A stretch of 34,176 bases of DNA from Hoeflea sp. (GTDB taxonomy: Bacteria > Pseudomonadota > Alphaproteobacteria > Rhizobiales > Rhizobiaceae), in assembly GCF_030682515.1 (NCBI RefSeq), contig NZ_JAUXOD010000013.1:1-34176 (forward strand). Direction: 5' to 3'. Position numbers and translations under genes: made by a program. The notes below the pieces were generated by a model, which saw nothing but the letters and a program-made list of their open reading frames with translations, was not told the DNA's origin and did not search any database. How positions within the stretch are numbered: the stretch's first letter is position 1; every line of letters starts with the position of its first letter. Of the stretch, positions 25,908 to 32,326 are shown one piece after another.

Positions 25908-27047
25908 ATGGCATATCAATTTGTACATCTCGATTTATGGTCTCGCAAAGCTGACGCCAAAGGTCGTTCGACTTCATTCATTTTCGACGAAGCCAGTCGC
26001 AAGCCGATAGCCTGCGTTCACGTCCCTGACCCAAAACCTTCGACAACCCTATATGGCGTTGGCATAGAAGAGGCTCGGCAGATGCACGATGCTGCCACCG
26101 CGATCGCAGCAACCACGGTAAAGGGCAAACCTCGGAAAATCCGTGCGGATCAGAAAACCCTCCATACCGTCGTCGCGTCACATCCATACACCGTTGAGGA
26201 AGTTCGAGGTGATAGAGCGAAGCTCGCTGAGGTTCGCGAATGGGAACGCCTATCGATCGCATGGCTGCGCGAGCAATATGGTCCAGCTCTCAAGACCGTA
26301 ATTCGGCACACTGATGAAAAACAGTGGCACATACACGCGTACATAATTCCGACCGCCGACCCCGAAATGAAGGCGATGGGTTTTCATCCGGGCACGATCG
26401 CAAAGCGAGTGGTCAAGGCCGCTGGACCTCGTCCAGGCGAAGACGCCAAAGCGCTGAACAAACGTTCTGATGTCGCCTACAAATCCGCTATGCGCGAATG
26501 GCAAGATTCTTATCATGATGCCGTTGCCGCACCGTGTGGGCTGACACGCCTGGGGCCAGCCCGTCGTCGGCTATCACGAGAAGAATGGAAAGCCGAGCAG
26601 GCTCAAGCTGGCGCTCTCAAGAAAGCTCTCGATCGGGCAGCCGACGTCGAAACAAAAGGCCAAGCCTACATTGATCGAACGAAAGCCGCGGCAGCTTCAC
26701 TGAAAGCTGAAGCGGAGGCAAAGGCTGCCCGGTCTCAGGGTGTCGGCGGCGCGGTTCGCGCGGTCGTCGACGGAATTCAAGAGTCTCGCATTCGGGATCA
26801 AATTCGTCGCGAATTCGCCCAGGATATTTCAGCGACGAGTGCAGCGCTCAAAAAACTGAAGGCTGAAGTCGCGAGAGAACAAGATGCGCGGCGCAATGCC
26901 GATAAATCGGCGGCCGATGCTCGTTATGTCAGTCGTCAACAATCAGCTCGGTTGGCCAATGCAAATCAGGAAATTCGACGGCTATCCAATGCTCTTACGG
27001 CAGCGCTGGACGAGCAGACCCCGATCAATGGGGGGATGGTGCCATGA
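25908..27047 (+). CDS. MobV (Mob/Pre)-type relaxase
   Basis: A 379-residue relaxase that would nick oriT and pilot the strand during conjugative mobilization. The metal-binding motif HTDEKQWHIHAYIIP (residues 134-148) matches the MobV HxDExxPHxH pattern, except that W replaces the usual P. The N-terminal Mob/Pre domain covers about residues 1-215. The rest (about 220-375) is rich in Ala, Lys, Glu and Arg and predicted to form long coiled coils, as in other Mob/Pre proteins. It is the first gene of an operon in which each junction overlaps by 4 bp. Its codon usage is AT-richer than that of the chromosome on the left. Confidence 0.83.
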   Translation: MAYQFVHLDLWSRKADAKGRSTSFIFDEASRKPIACVHVPDPKPSTTLYGVGIEEARQMHDAATAIAATTVKGKPRKIRADQKTLHTVVASHPYTVEEVRGDRAKLAEVREWERLSIAWLREQYGPALKTVIRHTDEKQWHIHAYIIPTADPEMKAMGFHPGTIAKRVVKAAGPRPGEDAKALNKRSDVAYKSAMREWQDSYHDAVAAPCGLTRLGPARRRLSREEWKAEQAQAGALKKALDRAADVETKGQAYIDRTKAAAASLKAEAEAKAARSQGVGGAVRAVVDGIQESRIRDQIRREFAQDISATSAALKKLKAEVAREQDARRNADKSAADARYVSRQQSARLANANQEIRRLSNALTAALDEQTPINGGMVP

Positions 27048-27730
27048 CCCCAGGTGAGCGAATTTTCTGGAGTAACGCGAACTCAACATTTGCAAGGATG
27101 GGTATGTCGCACCTCGATCCTGCACACGGCGCGGCGGTGGAAATCGTAGACTGGTGCCGTCGGATGCGACGGCGGCCAACCCATATCAGGCAGCGGTTTC
27201 TTGAACAGGAATCGCCAGCGTTGTTGGCTTATTTCGAGGCTTTGGATGCCAGTGATAGCCATGTCGCCTGGCGCACATTGGAAGACCGTATCAACAGAGC
27301 TGTACAGGAATCCGACATGAAGTCGTTCCCATGCGGATTCCCATGGCAAGTCACGATTTGGCTCCTCCTGCCTGAGCTAGCCGCAATAGGTCAGGCGATC
27401 CTGGACAAGCAGGCTCAGGCAAACGGGTGTAACCTGGACCCAGCCCCAATGCCGATTCAGAACCAGGATGATGCCGCAGGTAGCGATGGTGGCGATAAAG
27501 GTTCCGGCGACAAAACAGGGTCAGCTGGCTCCACTGCGAAACCGCTATTTCTTCCGTCTTTGCGGCTTCATTTACCCGCGACGACTGTCGTCTTGAGCGA
27601 TATTGAGCGCAAAATTTTCGATTTGAATAATGAGGCTGCCGAGGATGAAACTGATCCCAACAATCCAGTTGAGATTGAAGGCCCAGATGGGCCAGTTGCT
27701 CATCATGGGCCGATTGGCGGCAATCCGTGA
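27044..27730 (+). CDS. Unknown protein in the relaxase-DotA operon
   Basis: A 228-residue protein I do not recognise. The first 125 residues look globular and largely helical (RIFWSNANSTFARMG, VEIVDWCRRMRRRP, PWQVTIWLLLPELAAIGQAI). A Gly/Asp/Ser-rich linker follows (about 145-168), then a short acidic C-terminal part. No signal peptide or membrane helix. Start and stop overlap its neighbours (ATGA before, GTGA after), implying translational coupling and possibly a stoichiometric partner of the relaxase or of the DotA-like protein. Confidence 0.75.
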   Translation: MTPGERIFWSNANSTFARMGMSHLDPAHGAAVEIVDWCRRMRRRPTHIRQRFLEQESPALLAYFEALDASDSHVAWRTLEDRINRAVQESDMKSFPCGFPWQVTIWLLLPELAAIGQAILDKQAQANGCNLDPAPMPIQNQDDAAGSDGGDKGSGDKTGSAGSTAKPLFLPSLRLHLPATTVVLSDIERKIFDLNNEAAEDETDPNNPVEIEGPDGPVAHHGPIGGNP

Positions 27731-29685
27731 TCGACCTACTTGCTGAACCGTCTTCAACAAATATCGCCTGGCAATGGGTTTCCGCAGTCTTGCCCGGGGA
27801 CGCGGTCTCGCCTTGGGGCCGAACGCTTCAGGTTTTCACAAGTGCGTTGTTCTTCTTCGCGGCGCTGGGCCTATCATATGGTGTTGTCAGCGGCATCGTT
27901 TCCTCAGCATACACAGGAAAAGTTCTGGGCGACAAATGGCATCAAATCTGGACACCGCTCCGGATTGTAGTCGGCCTTGGACTGCTCGTTCCGCTTCCGT
28001 CGACAGGGTTCTCGTCGGTGCACTACCTGCTACGCGATGTCGTTGCTCGTGGCGGGATAAATTTGGCCGATGCGACCTGGAATACCTTTGTTGGTGTCGT
28101 TGCGAAAGACGGCGTTCCTATCGTGCCGATATCAAACAATGGCTCGACGATTGCAACGGCAATCTTGAAACATGAAATCTGCGCAGCAGTCTACAATGAA
28201 GCTGGCTCAACGTGGGGTTGGACTGCTCCAGTTCCTCCGGTTGTCGGAGAGGAAACTGGCCTTGGGCTTCCTGGCTCCGACAAACAAGTTGTCTGGTCAT
28301 ACGGTGCGACATGTGGGCGGTTCTCGTACAGCATTCCAACTGATCGAGAAGTCTTCTCGAATGCGCGGCGTGAGGCGGTAGCGGTACTTATAGGTGCTTT
28401 CAGACCTGAAGCCCAACGGTACGTGCAGCTGGCCGCTAACACATCGGGGATTACCTCCGCGGACGGCATATCGTCAGCGATCTCGATGACCGTCCTGTCG
28501 CCTAGTCTTGTTCAGGATATCCGGGCAATCGGGACCGCCTTCGACATACGGATTGCCAAAGCTGCGAGGGCTGAGGTGGCTAAAGTCGATATAGATTCGC
28601 GCTCGAAACTTGTTACCGCTGCACAACAACAGGGGTTTCTTGCAGCGGGTCTATATTGGCGCAACTTGGCACAAGTCAGCGAGCTGACGACATCACTGAC
28701 GAATGAACGGATGGAAGACACGGCTCCGAAGTTGGATGGTGACTTTGGGGGAGCCATAGACCGCGCATTTTCAATCCTGGCTTTGCAGGTGTCTGGTGAA
28801 GCGGCACGGGTGAATCTGAGTGCAAATGATTTTGCCTCCGTAGGCGATGAAAGTGCTGACTTCCTGACAAAGCTGTTGGCCCCAGTGGCCCGATCGCTGG
28901 CGGAATGGGCGGCAACATCTGGCAACGACACTGATGCCATGTCGGGCCTGATTTCTTCGGGACACGCAATGATAGCCGCTGGCTGGACAGCAATCGCAGC
29001 AGGCGGAACGCTCATGATCGCCAGCTCGAACTGGTTTTCATCAGCGGTCGGCGCGGGCGGTGCGGCTGACTGGTTTCTTGATTGGTCGAAATGGGTAATT
29101 GGTGCGCTGATGATCCTCGGAAGTCTACGGGCTTATGTCATTCCGCTCATGCCATTTGTCTTCGTGTTCATGGCCGGAATGGCGACCCTTGCGGCCTTAA
29201 TCGAAGCCATGATCGCCCTGCCATTGTGGTGCATGAAATGGCTGAGAATGGACAATGGCGGGGATTTCGCAGGTGAGTCCGTACGGATGGGCCTTCTGCT
29301 GCTCGTCAACATAGCGTTGCGTCCAGCGCTCGCCGTCCTGGCGCTCTGCGCAGCCTACCCCGTCTTCGACGCTACACTTGGCACACTCGACAAACTCTGG
29401 CCTGCCGCATTCTTCGGTCAGACAGGTGGCCATGTCGTCGGATTGGTTGGCTTCGTGGTGATGACCGCAATGCACATGTACCTCGTCTGGTACGCCTGCA
29501 TGCGAGGGTTTGGCCAAATTTGGAGCCTGCCAGATCGGGTACTCGCCTGGATTGGTCAGCCTGGGTCGGGTGGCGAGGCAAGCATGACGTCTGGAGCTTT
29601 CGGGGGGATGATCGCTATCGCTGGGAGAGGTGGCATGCCGCGAATGGCTATGGGATTGAACTCAAGAAAAGGAAAAGTGACATGA
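27727..29685 (+). CDS. DotA/TraY-family type IVB secretion/conjugation membrane protein
   Basis: A 652-residue polytopic inner-membrane protein. The N-terminal region carries the DotA/TraY signature: a helix (about 35-60) then SAYTGKVLGDKWHQIWTPLR, VVGLGLLVPLPSTGFSS and GGINLADATWNTFV. A large periplasmic domain follows (about 110-400). Then come several helices: about 410-435, 460-505, 530-560 and 580-605. DotA/TraY proteins belong to IncI/Dot-Icm type IVB machines; TraY of IncI plasmids is also the target of entry exclusion. The start is a GTG overlapping the previous stop. No other type IVB gene appears in this window, which is unusual for a complete transfer system. Confidence 0.85.
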   Translation: MIDLLAEPSSTNIAWQWVSAVLPGDAVSPWGRTLQVFTSALFFFAALGLSYGVVSGIVSSAYTGKVLGDKWHQIWTPLRIVVGLGLLVPLPSTGFSSVHYLLRDVVARGGINLADATWNTFVGVVAKDGVPIVPISNNGSTIATAILKHEICAAVYNEAGSTWGWTAPVPPVVGEETGLGLPGSDKQVVWSYGATCGRFSYSIPTDREVFSNARREAVAVLIGAFRPEAQRYVQLAANTSGITSADGISSAISMTVLSPSLVQDIRAIGTAFDIRIAKAARAEVAKVDIDSRSKLVTAAQQQGFLAAGLYWRNLAQVSELTTSLTNERMEDTAPKLDGDFGGAIDRAFSILALQVSGEAARVNLSANDFASVGDESADFLTKLLAPVARSLAEWAATSGNDTDAMSGLISSGHAMIAAGWTAIAAGGTLMIASSNWFSSAVGAGGAADWFLDWSKWVIGALMILGSLRAYVIPLMPFVFVFMAGMATLAALIEAMIALPLWCMKWLRMDNGGDFAGESVRMGLLLLVNIALRPALAVLALCAAYPVFDATLGTLDKLWPAAFFGQTGGHVVGLVGFVVMTAMHMYLVWYACMRGFGQIWSLPDRVLAWIGQPGSGGEASMTSGAFGGMIAIAGRGGMPRMAMGLNSRKGKVT

Positions 29686-29885
29686 AGAAAATAATGATCT
29701 GGATGGCATTAGGATTGGGACTGGCGGCCGCTTTCGGCTTTGCAGGACTGGCCTATTTGTCTGCAACGATGATTACGCTGACGGTGTTCTGTGCAACTCC
29801 AGCTCTGCTCGTTGTTCTCATCAAAGCCATTTCCAGCCGATTGCGTCGCAGACGAACTGCTTTTGAAAGTGGAGTCTTGCCATAG
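29682..29885 (+). CDS. Small membrane protein, last gene of the relaxase operon
   Basis: A 67-residue protein with two hydrophobic helices (about residues 5-25 and 28-48) and a basic C-terminus (SSRLRRRRTAFES). Its ATG overlaps the stop of the DotA-like gene (ATGA). Candidate entry-exclusion or accessory protein by position only; no family recognised. Confidence 0.7.
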   Translation: MKKIMIWMALGLGLAAAFGFAGLAYLSATMITLTVFCATPALLVVLIKAISSRLRRRRTAFESGVLP

Positions 29886-30073
29886 ATTGCGCTGGGTTAT
29901 TTTGCGAATGCATATATGAGATAACGCAACACGAAGTTTTTTTATAAATTCAAAATATTGTTGTTGACGAGCTTTTCGATTTCGGTAACCATCAATACAT
30001 AGAGGTTGCCCAACGGACACTTTTATAGGTTTTGTTTCCCTCAAAGGGTTTTGAACTACGTTCAAGCAAAACA

Positions 30074-30344
30074 AGTCACCGCCACACAGGCGGCTCTGAA
30101 GAATAATGCTATTGGCGTTGTGTCAAAAGCTGCTCACAAGGCCTTCTAGGCTATGTTCACCGCCATGTAGGCGGCTCTGAAGAGGCGATTTTGACGATCG
30201 GTCAATTTCGAAATTTACCGCCACACAGGCGGCTCTGAAAACGAATGCTACTGGCTCTATGTCAAAAGCTATTCACAAAGCCTTTTAGGCTATGTTTACC
30301 GCCATGTAGGCGGCTCTACTACCGCCACGTAGGCGGCAAATCAC
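30074..30344 (+). CRISPR. Five type I-F CRISPR-like repeats without cas genes (atypical, irregular spacing)
   Basis: Repeat copies start at 30074, 30155, 30213, 30294 and 30317. The best copy (30155-30182, 28 bp) has GTTCAC, stem CCGCC, loop ATGTA, stem GGCGG, tail CTCTGAAG. This is the architecture of the type I-F repeat cut by Cas6f/Csy4 (GTTCAC, 5-bp stem, 5-nt loop, 8-nt tail ending GAAA). Copies 1 and 3 have loop ACACA, copies 2 and 4 ATGTA, copy 5 ACGTA; copy 5 keeps only the hairpin and overlaps copy 4. The gaps are 53, 30 and 53 bp, not the constant 32 of I-F arrays. The two 53-bp gaps are homologous to each other, so they are not acquired spacers. The full 139-bp unit is duplicated. 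No cas gene is in the window. Confidence 0.6.
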
Positions 30345-30367
30345 ACTGCGAAGGTGAGATGCGAAAC

Positions 30368-30392
30368 GGGCGGCAGGAATGTCGCCCTTTTT
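30368..30392 (+). terminator. Intrinsic terminator downstream of the repeat hairpins
   Basis: GGGCGGCA (30368-30375) pairs with TGTCGCCC (30380-30387), giving 8 bp with one G-T wobble around a GGAA tetraloop, followed by TTTTT (30388-30392). The stretch 30393-30665 shows no gene I can support. Confidence 0.75.
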
Positions 30393-30665
30393 GTTGTCTA
30401 TGGTTCATCTGGAAGAATTATTCGACCCATTTCTGAAACACGTGAACTACCGCCAGTTCGAGCTCGTTTATAACCTCGGGGTTGAAGAGGGTGCGTCAAC
30501 TCTCGGCCCAAAGCTGACTTTAACACCGTGTTCAGAGACCACCTGTATTTTTGATTCCGCAGTTGCAGGCGCGTAAAAATTCAATGGAACAAAAAATGCG
30601 ACACGAATTTCCAGATGGCGAAAAGTAGGTTCAAGCTGATCGGTGTTGTTGGGAAGGAGCTGAAA

Positions 30666-31211
30666 ATGCGATACGCCCACAAGGAGAAGGCTTATTCAGA
30701 GCCCTTTGCTAGTCTGCTCGAAACAAGTCCCGCATTCCTACTTTGGATTTTACGCCAGACCCGTTTTGCATCGGAAGCGCCAGGAGCGAGGCTGTTATTT
30801 GAAGAAATGGCCGCGACCCGCTCTAAAGCCAGCCGAACTTGGTGGGGCTCGCACTTCACCATGTCATGTAAATGCGATGGGTGCAGAGGCGGACGAGAGA
30901 CCGACGTTCTCGCTATTGTTGAACTGTCCAGCGGTGACCGCATCGCGTTGCATTTTGAGGTAAAGCATCCCAAAGACCGCCTGAGCCAAGGTCAAGCAGC
31001 GCGATACAAGCTCAGAGCGAACTGCTGGGCAGCGAATGCTCCACCGACCATGATCGCGCACACCGAAGCGACCACGATTCTATTATGGACTGAACCAACG
31101 ACCAAGCACGCAACATCCGAGGTCTCGGATTTCGATAACGTGATAACTTGGGACGCTCTCACCGCTGAATTTCCTGATGCTGGAATTCCAGATTGTTCGG
31201 AACCTGGCTAG
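30666..31211 (+). CDS. PD-(D/E)XK nuclease-like protein of unknown role
   Basis: A 181-residue protein. The pattern TDVLAIVELSSGDRIALHFEVKHP followed by QGQAARYKL is a PD-(D/E)XK-type active site (D, E-x-K and a downstream Q). A CxxC-like KCDGCRGG lies just before it, possibly a zinc or structural site. The frame is open from 30615, but AAGGAG stands 7 bp before the ATG at 30666 (MRYAHKEKAYSE), so that start is preferred. It is the first gene after the repeat-hairpin RNA. Whether it acts on DNA or RNA and in attack or defence cannot be said from sequence. Confidence 0.72.
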   Translation: MRYAHKEKAYSEPFASLLETSPAFLLWILRQTRFASEAPGARLLFEEMAATRSKASRTWWGSHFTMSCKCDGCRGGRETDVLAIVELSSGDRIALHFEVKHPKDRLSQGQAARYKLRANCWAANAPPTMIAHTEATTILLWTEPTTKHATSEVSDFDNVITWDALTAEFPDAGIPDCSEPG

Positions 31212-31981: not shown

Positions 31982-32326
31982 ATGAGGCCATCGAATTTTC
32001 TAACCACTCAGCAGCGTCTGGCACTTGAACGGATTGTGCATCGCCCACGCGGGGATCATGGGGTTGCGCGGCGGGCGAATGCGATTTTGCTGTTGGATGA
32101 TGGCAAGAGCTATGCGCAGATTGCGGAGTTTTTGTATCTTGATAACGACACCGTCCGGGGCTGGTTCAAGCGCTTTGAGGCGGGTGGCTGGGATGCTTTG
32201 GAGCGGTTTGACTGGCAAGGCGGTCAGTCGCATTTGACACCAGCGCAGCAAACGGCGCTCAACGATTGGCTGGAGACGCGCCTGTGCCGCGACACTGGCC
32301 AGATCAGGGCCCATATCTTGAATTAA
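31982..32326 (+). pseudogene. IS630-family transposase, N-terminal fragment
   Basis: A 114-residue frame. The N-terminal helix-turn-helix of IS630/Tc1-type transposases (SYAQIAEFLYLDNDTVRGWFKRFEAGGWDAL) is followed by the conserved QTALNDWLETRLCRDTGQIRAHI. Family members continue for over 200 residues with the DDE catalytic domain. Here the frame ends immediately, at the first TCTTGAATTA repeat (32316). It is cut on its right by that repeat block and lies against a broken flagellin gene on its left. Confidence 0.82.

Follow-up and report, generated by a model that had tools for sequence, protein, structure and literature searches.

Why should a string of hairpins resembling type I-F CRISPR repeats lie next to conjugation-type genes in a genome of Hoeflea sp., and what could such a string do? 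The window (the whole stretch of DNA analysed here, 34,176 nt, one contig in a genome of 4.67 Mb) carries a multi-hairpin locus that is flanked upstream by a conjugation-type gene set and then a small ORF (Table 1). An earlier note on this DNA had proposed that the hairpins form an RNA decoy of the Racr (RNA anti-CRISPR) kind, mimicking I-F repeats. We lean, though not strongly, towards a related answer, in which positions 30001-30392, within an integrated conjugative-type element, would encode a non-coding RNA that acts as an RNA anti-CRISPR-like decoy. The I-F likeness on which that proposal was built stands, but its solitary picture was too narrow, the relatives of the locus being strings of several hairpin kinds.

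Table 1. Features of the multi-hairpin locus and of the DNA upstream of it, in window coordinates.
Feature	Position	Strand	Basis or remark
ORF, weakly MobV-relaxase-like, element context	25908..27047	+	NCBIfam MobV 44.2 bits, below cut-off of 100
traY-like gene (DotA/TraY, type IVB / I-type conjugation)	27727..29685	+	TIGR04346 221 bits, cut-off 100
Small membrane-protein-like ORF between traY and RNA locus	29682..29885	+	Sequence
TTGACG, candidate -35 of the putative RNA	29964..29969	+	TTGAC at most 100 nt upstream in 7/12 loci
Small hairpin CCCT-CAA-AGGG	30038..30048	+	Possible kin of the relatives' H1 hairpins, likeness by eye
Tandem duplication, unit 1	30073..30178	+	106 nt, 87% identical to 30212-30317
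I-F-like hairpin copy A	30074..30101 (stem 30079-30093), tail CTCTGAAG	+	CRISPR-DR4 20.4 bits at 30076-30101; 20/28 to G798 I-F repeat
Small hairpin B, within 53-nt gap	30140..30152	+	Pairing kept in second copy
I-F-like hairpin copy C (copy of the earlier note)	30155..30182 (stem 30160-30174)	+	CRISPR-DR4 28.5 bits; 22/28 to G798 I-F repeat
Tandem duplication, unit 2	30212..30317	+	106 nt, 87% identical to 30073-30178
I-F-like hairpin copy A'	30213..30240 (stem 30218-30232)	+	CRISPR-DR4 29.8 bits; 20/28 to G798 I-F repeat
Small hairpin B'	30279..30291	+	Counterpart of B
Copy C', stem kept, tail lost	30294..30321 (stem 30299-30313)	+	Own hairpin probability 0.01
Fifth stem D, without I-F-like tail	30322..30336	+	Predicted pairing with C'
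Intrinsic-terminator-like hairpin, then TTTTTGTT	30368..30387	+	Terminator scan; Shinella relatives have a similar terminator sequence

The traY-like gene upstream places the RNA locus on a conjugative-type element, in keeping with the mobile setting first proposed for it, and a comparable small ORF occupies the equivalent position in G369 and in Hoeflea L125, as judged from a comparison by eye only. The AT-rich leader was also borne out, with 64% A+T over the 150 nt preceding position 30001. The strong intrinsic terminator that had been claimed was recovered as a terminator-like hairpin, but the same scan called no sigma-70-like promoter on the + strand of the locus, where TTGACG was chosen as the candidate -35 element because of its recurrence upstream of related loci. 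Downstream of the locus, a short IS630-type helix-turn-helix ORF (31982-32326) is probably a transposase fragment.

The hairpins of the window are real and I-F-like. Among 4227 Rfam families (cmscan, 715 bases), the I-F repeat family CRISPR-DR4 was the best match for three copies, with E-values of 1.6e-4 for A', 4.1e-4 for C and 0.12 for A; searched alone against the whole 4.67-Mb genome, it gave 2.5e-4, 6.4e-4 and 0.187, the next-best site standing at 3.9. Every copy lies below the 35-bit gathering limit of this family (best 29.8 bits), which is why a gathering-level Rfam scan of the window returned no match. The stem is CCGCC/GGCGG, as compared with CUGCC/GGCAG in CRISPR-DR4. Against the I-F repeat of G798 (GTTACCCGCCGAGCAGGCGGCTCAGAAG), which was obtained after the loci had been fixed, the sense strand of the window scored 16, a value matched by 4 of 500 hairpin-preserving shuffles, whereas the reverse complement stood at the null; the resemblance also held with four alphaproteobacterial repeats. 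The first four copies agree with the G798 repeat at 18-22 of 28 positions and with CRISPR-DR4 at no more than 21 of 28, and the likeness extends beyond the stem to the 5' flank and to the tail (CTCTGAAG), which shares 7 of 8 positions with the G798 tail and 5 of 8 with that of CRISPR-DR4. The copy to which the earlier note had drawn attention (GTTCACCGCCATGTAGGCGGCTCTGAAG) is indeed I-F-like, and all five of the CCGCC-5nt-GGCGG stems were located; as I-F repeat copies, however, the five hold up only in part, the CTCTGAA tail being present in three, with CTCTACT in copy 4 (C') and CAAATCA in copy 5 (D).

The five stems lie within 260 nt, and the spacings of 53, 30 and 53 nt given previously are exact for the four 28-nt units, the stem-to-stem steps being 81, 58, 81 and 23. 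The array arose when a unit of 106 nt, copies and gaps together, was duplicated in tandem at a step of 139 nt, and the two units have diverged to 87% identity; these duplicated gaps and irregular steps agree with the earlier view that it is not a normal array. In their I-F-like hairpins the two units have the same stems and loops; most of the differences fall in the linkers, and the change in hairpin B preserves its pairing. The gaps fold, as had been claimed, with one such small hairpin in each 53-nt gap (B and B'), and a 366-nt stretch folds better than its own shuffles (z -5.3, 0/100). Hairpins of the B type (GGCC/AGCC-5nt-GGCT) occur in both units, and a comparable hairpin precedes an I-F-like copy in G034 and G272. 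Copies 4 and 5 are predicted to pair together, with hairpin probabilities of 0.01 and 0.00 as against 0.41-0.87 for copies 1-3, and as they now stand, two of the five are probably no decoys.

Eleven relatives were assembled from ten other Rhizobiaceae genomes, making twelve loci in eleven genomes with the window. Three Shinella plasmids were reached through a weak BLAST match of the repeat and further loci through motif searches, one of which matched 25 of 394 genomes, with the places read at five of them. When one mismatch was allowed, the motif ACCGCCNNNNAGGCGGCTCTGAA gave 17 sites in 15 of the 394 Rhizobiaceae genomes (reversed control, 3 sites in 3 genomes); the 17 sites were judged by reading, and G091, G403, G083, G094 and G143 were excluded. 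Among 297 sampled genomes of the order, the same motif gave seven one-mismatch sites outside the window's own genome, counted as raw pattern matches (control, 2), and no exact site outside that genome, and no DNA match to the locus was found in 17 congeners. Locus ends were set by eye, and one member of each of the kin pairs XJ20a/ATCC and G034/G272 was dropped in the ten-locus and later tests. Left out of the twelve were a Shinella sumterensis copy (L133, about record 170713-171013; L132:1-100), which is interrupted by an IS5-family element, the second of the G269 copies and a further unit in G198 (L182, about 1720-1860), where a promoter-like sequence and a GTTCCCCTTGAGGG hairpin follow the first terminator, resembling a neighbouring second RNA. 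Plasmid p3 of Shinella XJ20 has two distinct multi-hairpin loci (L261:3188-3432 and L130:7767-8083), and the G091 site (L181:1501-1560), a single motif of the I-F-like kind with a second hairpin between two genes, is a possible shortened relative outside the counts.

A search for relatives on other elements had been proposed, and three of the twelve loci are on plasmids (Shinella relatives among them), three lie behind traY and three lie near an integrase-like gene, each of these genes scoring below the Pfam domain cut-off. In G369 and G147, related RNA loci follow traY homologues that are 70% and 62% identical, respectively, to that of the window. Near the loci of G198, G248 and G269 no recognisable mobile gene was found, the G248 locus adjoining nnrU/nnrS, and the downstream genes vary among loci. 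Synteny with traY was rejected as the defining context, Hoeflea BAL378 having a traY of 84% identity yet no such hairpin downstream. A match on another contig of the window's own genome (L175), with neither the I-F-like stem nor a GTTATGTT-type motif, was judged to be chance. BLAST against phages and plasmids with the window, and with L153 and L134, yielded nothing useful, and the hairpin patterns had no match in viral contigs except for one that was too loose to be informative.

The twelve loci combine several kinds of hairpin. F hairpins (CCGCC..GGYGG) number 22 in 11 loci, E hairpins (CTCTGC-ANAC-GCAGAG-ATGTACC and variants) 13 in seven, C hairpins (CTCCC-TTCAC-GGGAGGG) four in four and H1 hairpins seven in five. 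In the E hairpins, pairs 2, 4 and 5 have undergone two-sided changes and one cell is mispaired, under a pattern that admits mispairs only partly. The strict E pattern has 12 occurrences in the 3,394 bases of the loci and none in the remaining fetched DNA (548,075 bases); the corresponding counts were 13 against 1 for F, 4 against 5 for C and 2 against 0 for H1. Of the relatives, G198 comes closest to the G798 repeat, its F hairpin agreeing at 25 of 28 positions, with an identical GAGCA loop. Pooled I-F scores (z 10-11) are inflated because most relatives came through the F motif itself, and the evidence we regard as fair is that of the window by itself, of those parts of the G798 comparison that played no role in the searches (loop and 5' flank) and of the surplus of motif sites over the reversed control.

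Judged by their sequences, the hairpins of some relatives also resemble I-E and I-C repeats, on the sense strand only and beyond hairpin-preserving shuffles. The repeat library came from 20 cas1 regions of Rhizobiaceae and included five repeats of I-E form and six of I-C form, classes that we take from Cas1e model matches for L225 and L230 (the latter gave no array) and, for the remainder, from the general form of the repeats. The twelve loci scored 138 against 120.0 in hairpin-keeping shuffles for I-E (z 3.3, 1/200) and 140 against 122.0 for I-C (z 4.3, 0/200), p-values that are optimistic because the likeness was noticed before testing (partly post hoc), while the II-C and reverse-complement libraries gave z from -1.4 to 1.2. 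Under the same qualification, ten non-redundant loci with randomised repeats gave 1/400 for I-E and 6/400 for I-C, and with the F copies removed both stood at 0/1000, against 52/1000 and 443/1000 for the reversed controls (z 1.85 for the reversed I-E library). Against random windows, p-values of at most 0.05 were obtained for I-E likeness in XJ20a, G332, G034, G272 and G248 and for I-C likeness in XJ20a, G147, G198 and G269; these single-locus values are conservative because the background windows still contained a few fragments of arrays (maximum scores 29 and 32). Examples are CGTTCTCTGCAAACGCAGAGATGTACCG in G332 beside the I-E repeat CGTTCCCCGCACGCGCGGGGATGAACCG, and CTCCCTTCACGGGAGGGTG in G269 beside the I-C repeat CTCCCTTCACGGGAGCGTG. 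The window itself gave no I-E-like or I-C-like signal (0.60 and 0.55 against random windows). No weight was given to an I-C-like tail in G147 (CGTGGATTGAAAC), the 5' stem of which also occurs in G369 without that tail. We put forward tentatively, and with more doubt than confidence, that these loci form a composite class of RNA anti-CRISPRs on Rhizobiaceae plasmids and integrated elements, in which one transcript would mimic I-F, I-E and I-C repeats (perhaps H1 and others as well) and titrate the processing nucleases of several subtypes, the window being a member rich in I-F-like copies through tandem duplication.

I-F systems that such hairpins could meet are present in the Alphaproteobacteria. 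In G798 there are 14 repeats with a 60-nt step, a Csy3 above the cut-off and Csy1 and Csy2 by Pfam; plasmid p3 of Pararhizobium gei has 26 repeats with annotated csy2, csy3 and cas1f, and further I-F arrays were found in Neokomagataea tanensis (8 repeats) and Acetobacter ascendens (3 repeats). The comparison with I-F repeats that the earlier note had proposed came out positive, the CCGCC/GGCGG stem being common to all four of these arrays, including that of a Rhizobiaceae plasmid. I-F is rare, with Csy3 in 1 of 133 genomes of the class and a single Rhizobiaceae record among 36 plasmid matches. The NCBIfam Csy4 model (TIGR02563) misses the Cas6f-position proteins at L263:6282-7103, to which Pfam Csy4 gives 24.8 bits against a cut-off of 25, and at L264:11047-11697 (P. 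gei). Since TIGR02563 misses two alphaproteobacterial systems, I-F may be under-called in the class, and the notion that these bacteria have no I-F (0 of 297 order genomes above the cut-off, one partial) was discarded as uninformative because the model overlooks the Cas6f-position proteins of G798 and P. gei. A CRISPR array with an unusual repeat (GTATCCGGGGCCTTCGGGCCCCGGCCTCATTGAAGC, 63 copies found) begins at L239:10684 in a Rhizobiaceae genome.

In the window's genome, neither the Cas1 nor the Cas6f family was matched, as expected from the claim that no cas gene lies nearby, the Cas6f model used being one that misses alphaproteobacterial Cas6f-position proteins. No carrier genome has cas1 (0/11, against a family rate of 39/247), an outcome with a chance of about 15% if the carriers are independent, and it therefore neither favours the decoy idea nor rules it out.

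A decoy RNA could diminish CRISPR immunity in the following way. The locus would be transcribed from the + strand, and its I-F-like hairpins would be bound by Cas6f of an I-F system belonging to the recipient or to a co-resident plasmid, which would probably cleave each stem at its 3' base. Each RNA would offer three working copies, and Cas6f, perhaps with Cas7f, could then be locked in dead-end complexes; targeting of the incoming element would weaken and its transfer would benefit. The composite version would titrate Cas6e and Cas5c as well. Such a decoy would take effect in a recipient or on a plasmid sharing the cell, and in P. gei the I-F system is indeed carried by a plasmid.

In the passages of Camara-Wilpert et al. 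(2023; PMC10651486) that deal with RacrIF1, Cas6f binds and cuts the RNA, for which the stem-base pair C6-G20 is required, Cas7f assembles into a dead-end filament and the 8-nt tail is dispensable. In favour of a decoy we count the stem-base C-G pair in all 22 F copies, which the search pattern requires, and the duplication having left the F hairpin cores nearly unchanged. The Rfam and G798 matches, the I-F system of the P. gei plasmid, the mobile setting of many of the loci and the I-E-like and I-C-like hairpins of relatives also count in its favour. Against it we count the recurrence of the tail here, in relatives largely selected for it, although the tail is dispensable in RacrIF1, and the 0/11 carriers with cas1, as compared with CRISPR-Cas in about 90% of the hosts of SRU-bearing prophages and viruses, according to the part of that study on such hosts (PMC10651486). 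Identity of at most 79%, the lack of a called + strand promoter, the rarity of I-F, the three relatives without a mobile gene and the 17 congeners without a relative also count against it. Weighing both sides, the sequences suggest, as the best reading, a Racr-like RNA decoy with several hairpins, which in some relatives would be composite.

Three other explanations were weighed. First, the locus could encode an unrelated regulatory RNA, the hairpins of which bind an RNA-binding protein of the host or element or act as a sponge, the CRISPR likeness being convergence on GC-rich hairpins with 5-nt loops. We consider this unlikely, though it deserves serious attention: it would accommodate the several hairpin kinds per string, of which only some are CRISPR-like (H1 and B are unmatched), the absence of cas1 in carriers and the occurrence of F-motif loci across the Rhizobiaceae although I-F is rare, but it is at odds with a sense-only match to three CRISPR repeat classes beyond hairpin-preserving shuffles, with the II-C and reversed libraries at the null (save the reversed I-E value already given), and with the match of the F tail and 5' flank, beyond the stem, to I-F.

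Second, a degenerate I-F mini-array, now or once processed to crRNA-like pieces made of an 8-nt handle, 30 or 53 nt and a hairpin that guide the Csy complex of another element, seems to us improbable. Handle-like tails are kept, the C-to-A' spacing of 58 nt is near the 60 of I-F arrays, and RacrIF1 with an added repeat and spacer made a working crRNA, as stated in the RacrIF1 passages of PMC10651486. The gaps, however, are mutual duplicates and not unique spacers, the stretch 30180-30216 has no plasmid match at E<=1, 21- and 20-base pieces of two gaps have no exact viral match, and the relatives are irregularly spaced with hairpin kinds mixed. A normal or remnant array was likewise ruled down by the duplicated gaps, the irregular steps and the lack of a gap match in plasmids or of an exact one in viral contigs. 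Finally, a Cas-dependent regulator of the crRNA-mimic type known as CreA/CreR, or the RNA antitoxin of a type III toxin-antitoxin system, in place of an inhibitor, is very improbable: repeats followed by a terminator and the ORF 30615-31211 would fit, but the genome has no recognised cas system to regulate, that ORF, which stands where a ToxN/CptN/TenpN-type toxin gene would be sought, has no NCBIfam match and in Pfam only a non-significant one to VRR_NUC (E 0.19), and the genes downstream differ among loci.

We return to the favoured reading, an RNA anti-CRISPR-like decoy, and to its place among known systems. The alphaproteobacterial I-F arrays share with the window the CCGCC/GGCGG stem and a 5-nt loop ending in A, but in them nearly identical repeats recur every 60 nt with cas genes close by, none of which is the case in the window; nor does it show the unique spacers of an I-F array or reach the 35-bit limit of CRISPR-DR4. 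RNA mimicry without strict sequence identity reportedly exists in the structural crRNA mimic against Cas13 of Hayes et al. in 2025, which concerns another CRISPR type than the I-F likeness seen here. Viral mini-arrays resemble the window in their small number of repeats and in lying on a mobile element that has no cas, but in the sections of PMC11656645 that describe them the repeats are identical to those of the host and the spacers are directed against related viruses, neither of which was found in the window.

The closest comparison is with RacrIF1 and other SRUs, with which the window shares a hairpin that resembles a CRISPR repeat and lies on mobile DNA, outside any array and with no attached cas operon nearby, the stem-base C-G pair, and one I-F-type copy plus flank as the unit. 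It differs in being tandem and duplicated, with 18-22 of 28 matching positions, and its relatives are mixed with I-E-like and I-C-like hairpins. Racr are described as solitary units in the sections of Camara-Wilpert et al. (2023; PMC10651486) that introduce them, whereas the window has five stems in 260 nt, and its best identity to known I-F repeats, although the resemblance exceeds chance, is 79% (22/28) and not 90%; for both reasons it is not a proven Racr member. Searches of the open-licence PMC literature turned up no description of tandem or multi-subtype Racr loci. SRUFinder, by the search rules given in PMC10651486, requires an identity of at least 90% and discards clustered matches, so loci such as that of the window would be missed. 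Together with the Cas systems that match them, of which a Rhizobiaceae plasmid carries one, the twelve loci form a directly testable set. If the composite decoy reading is true, it would help to explain the spread of plasmids among hosts with differing CRISPR types, and RNA anti-CRISPRs would exist not only as the solitary units of RacrIF1 and its kind but also as modular multi-subtype decoys assembled on conjugative elements, which identity-based SRU searches pass over.
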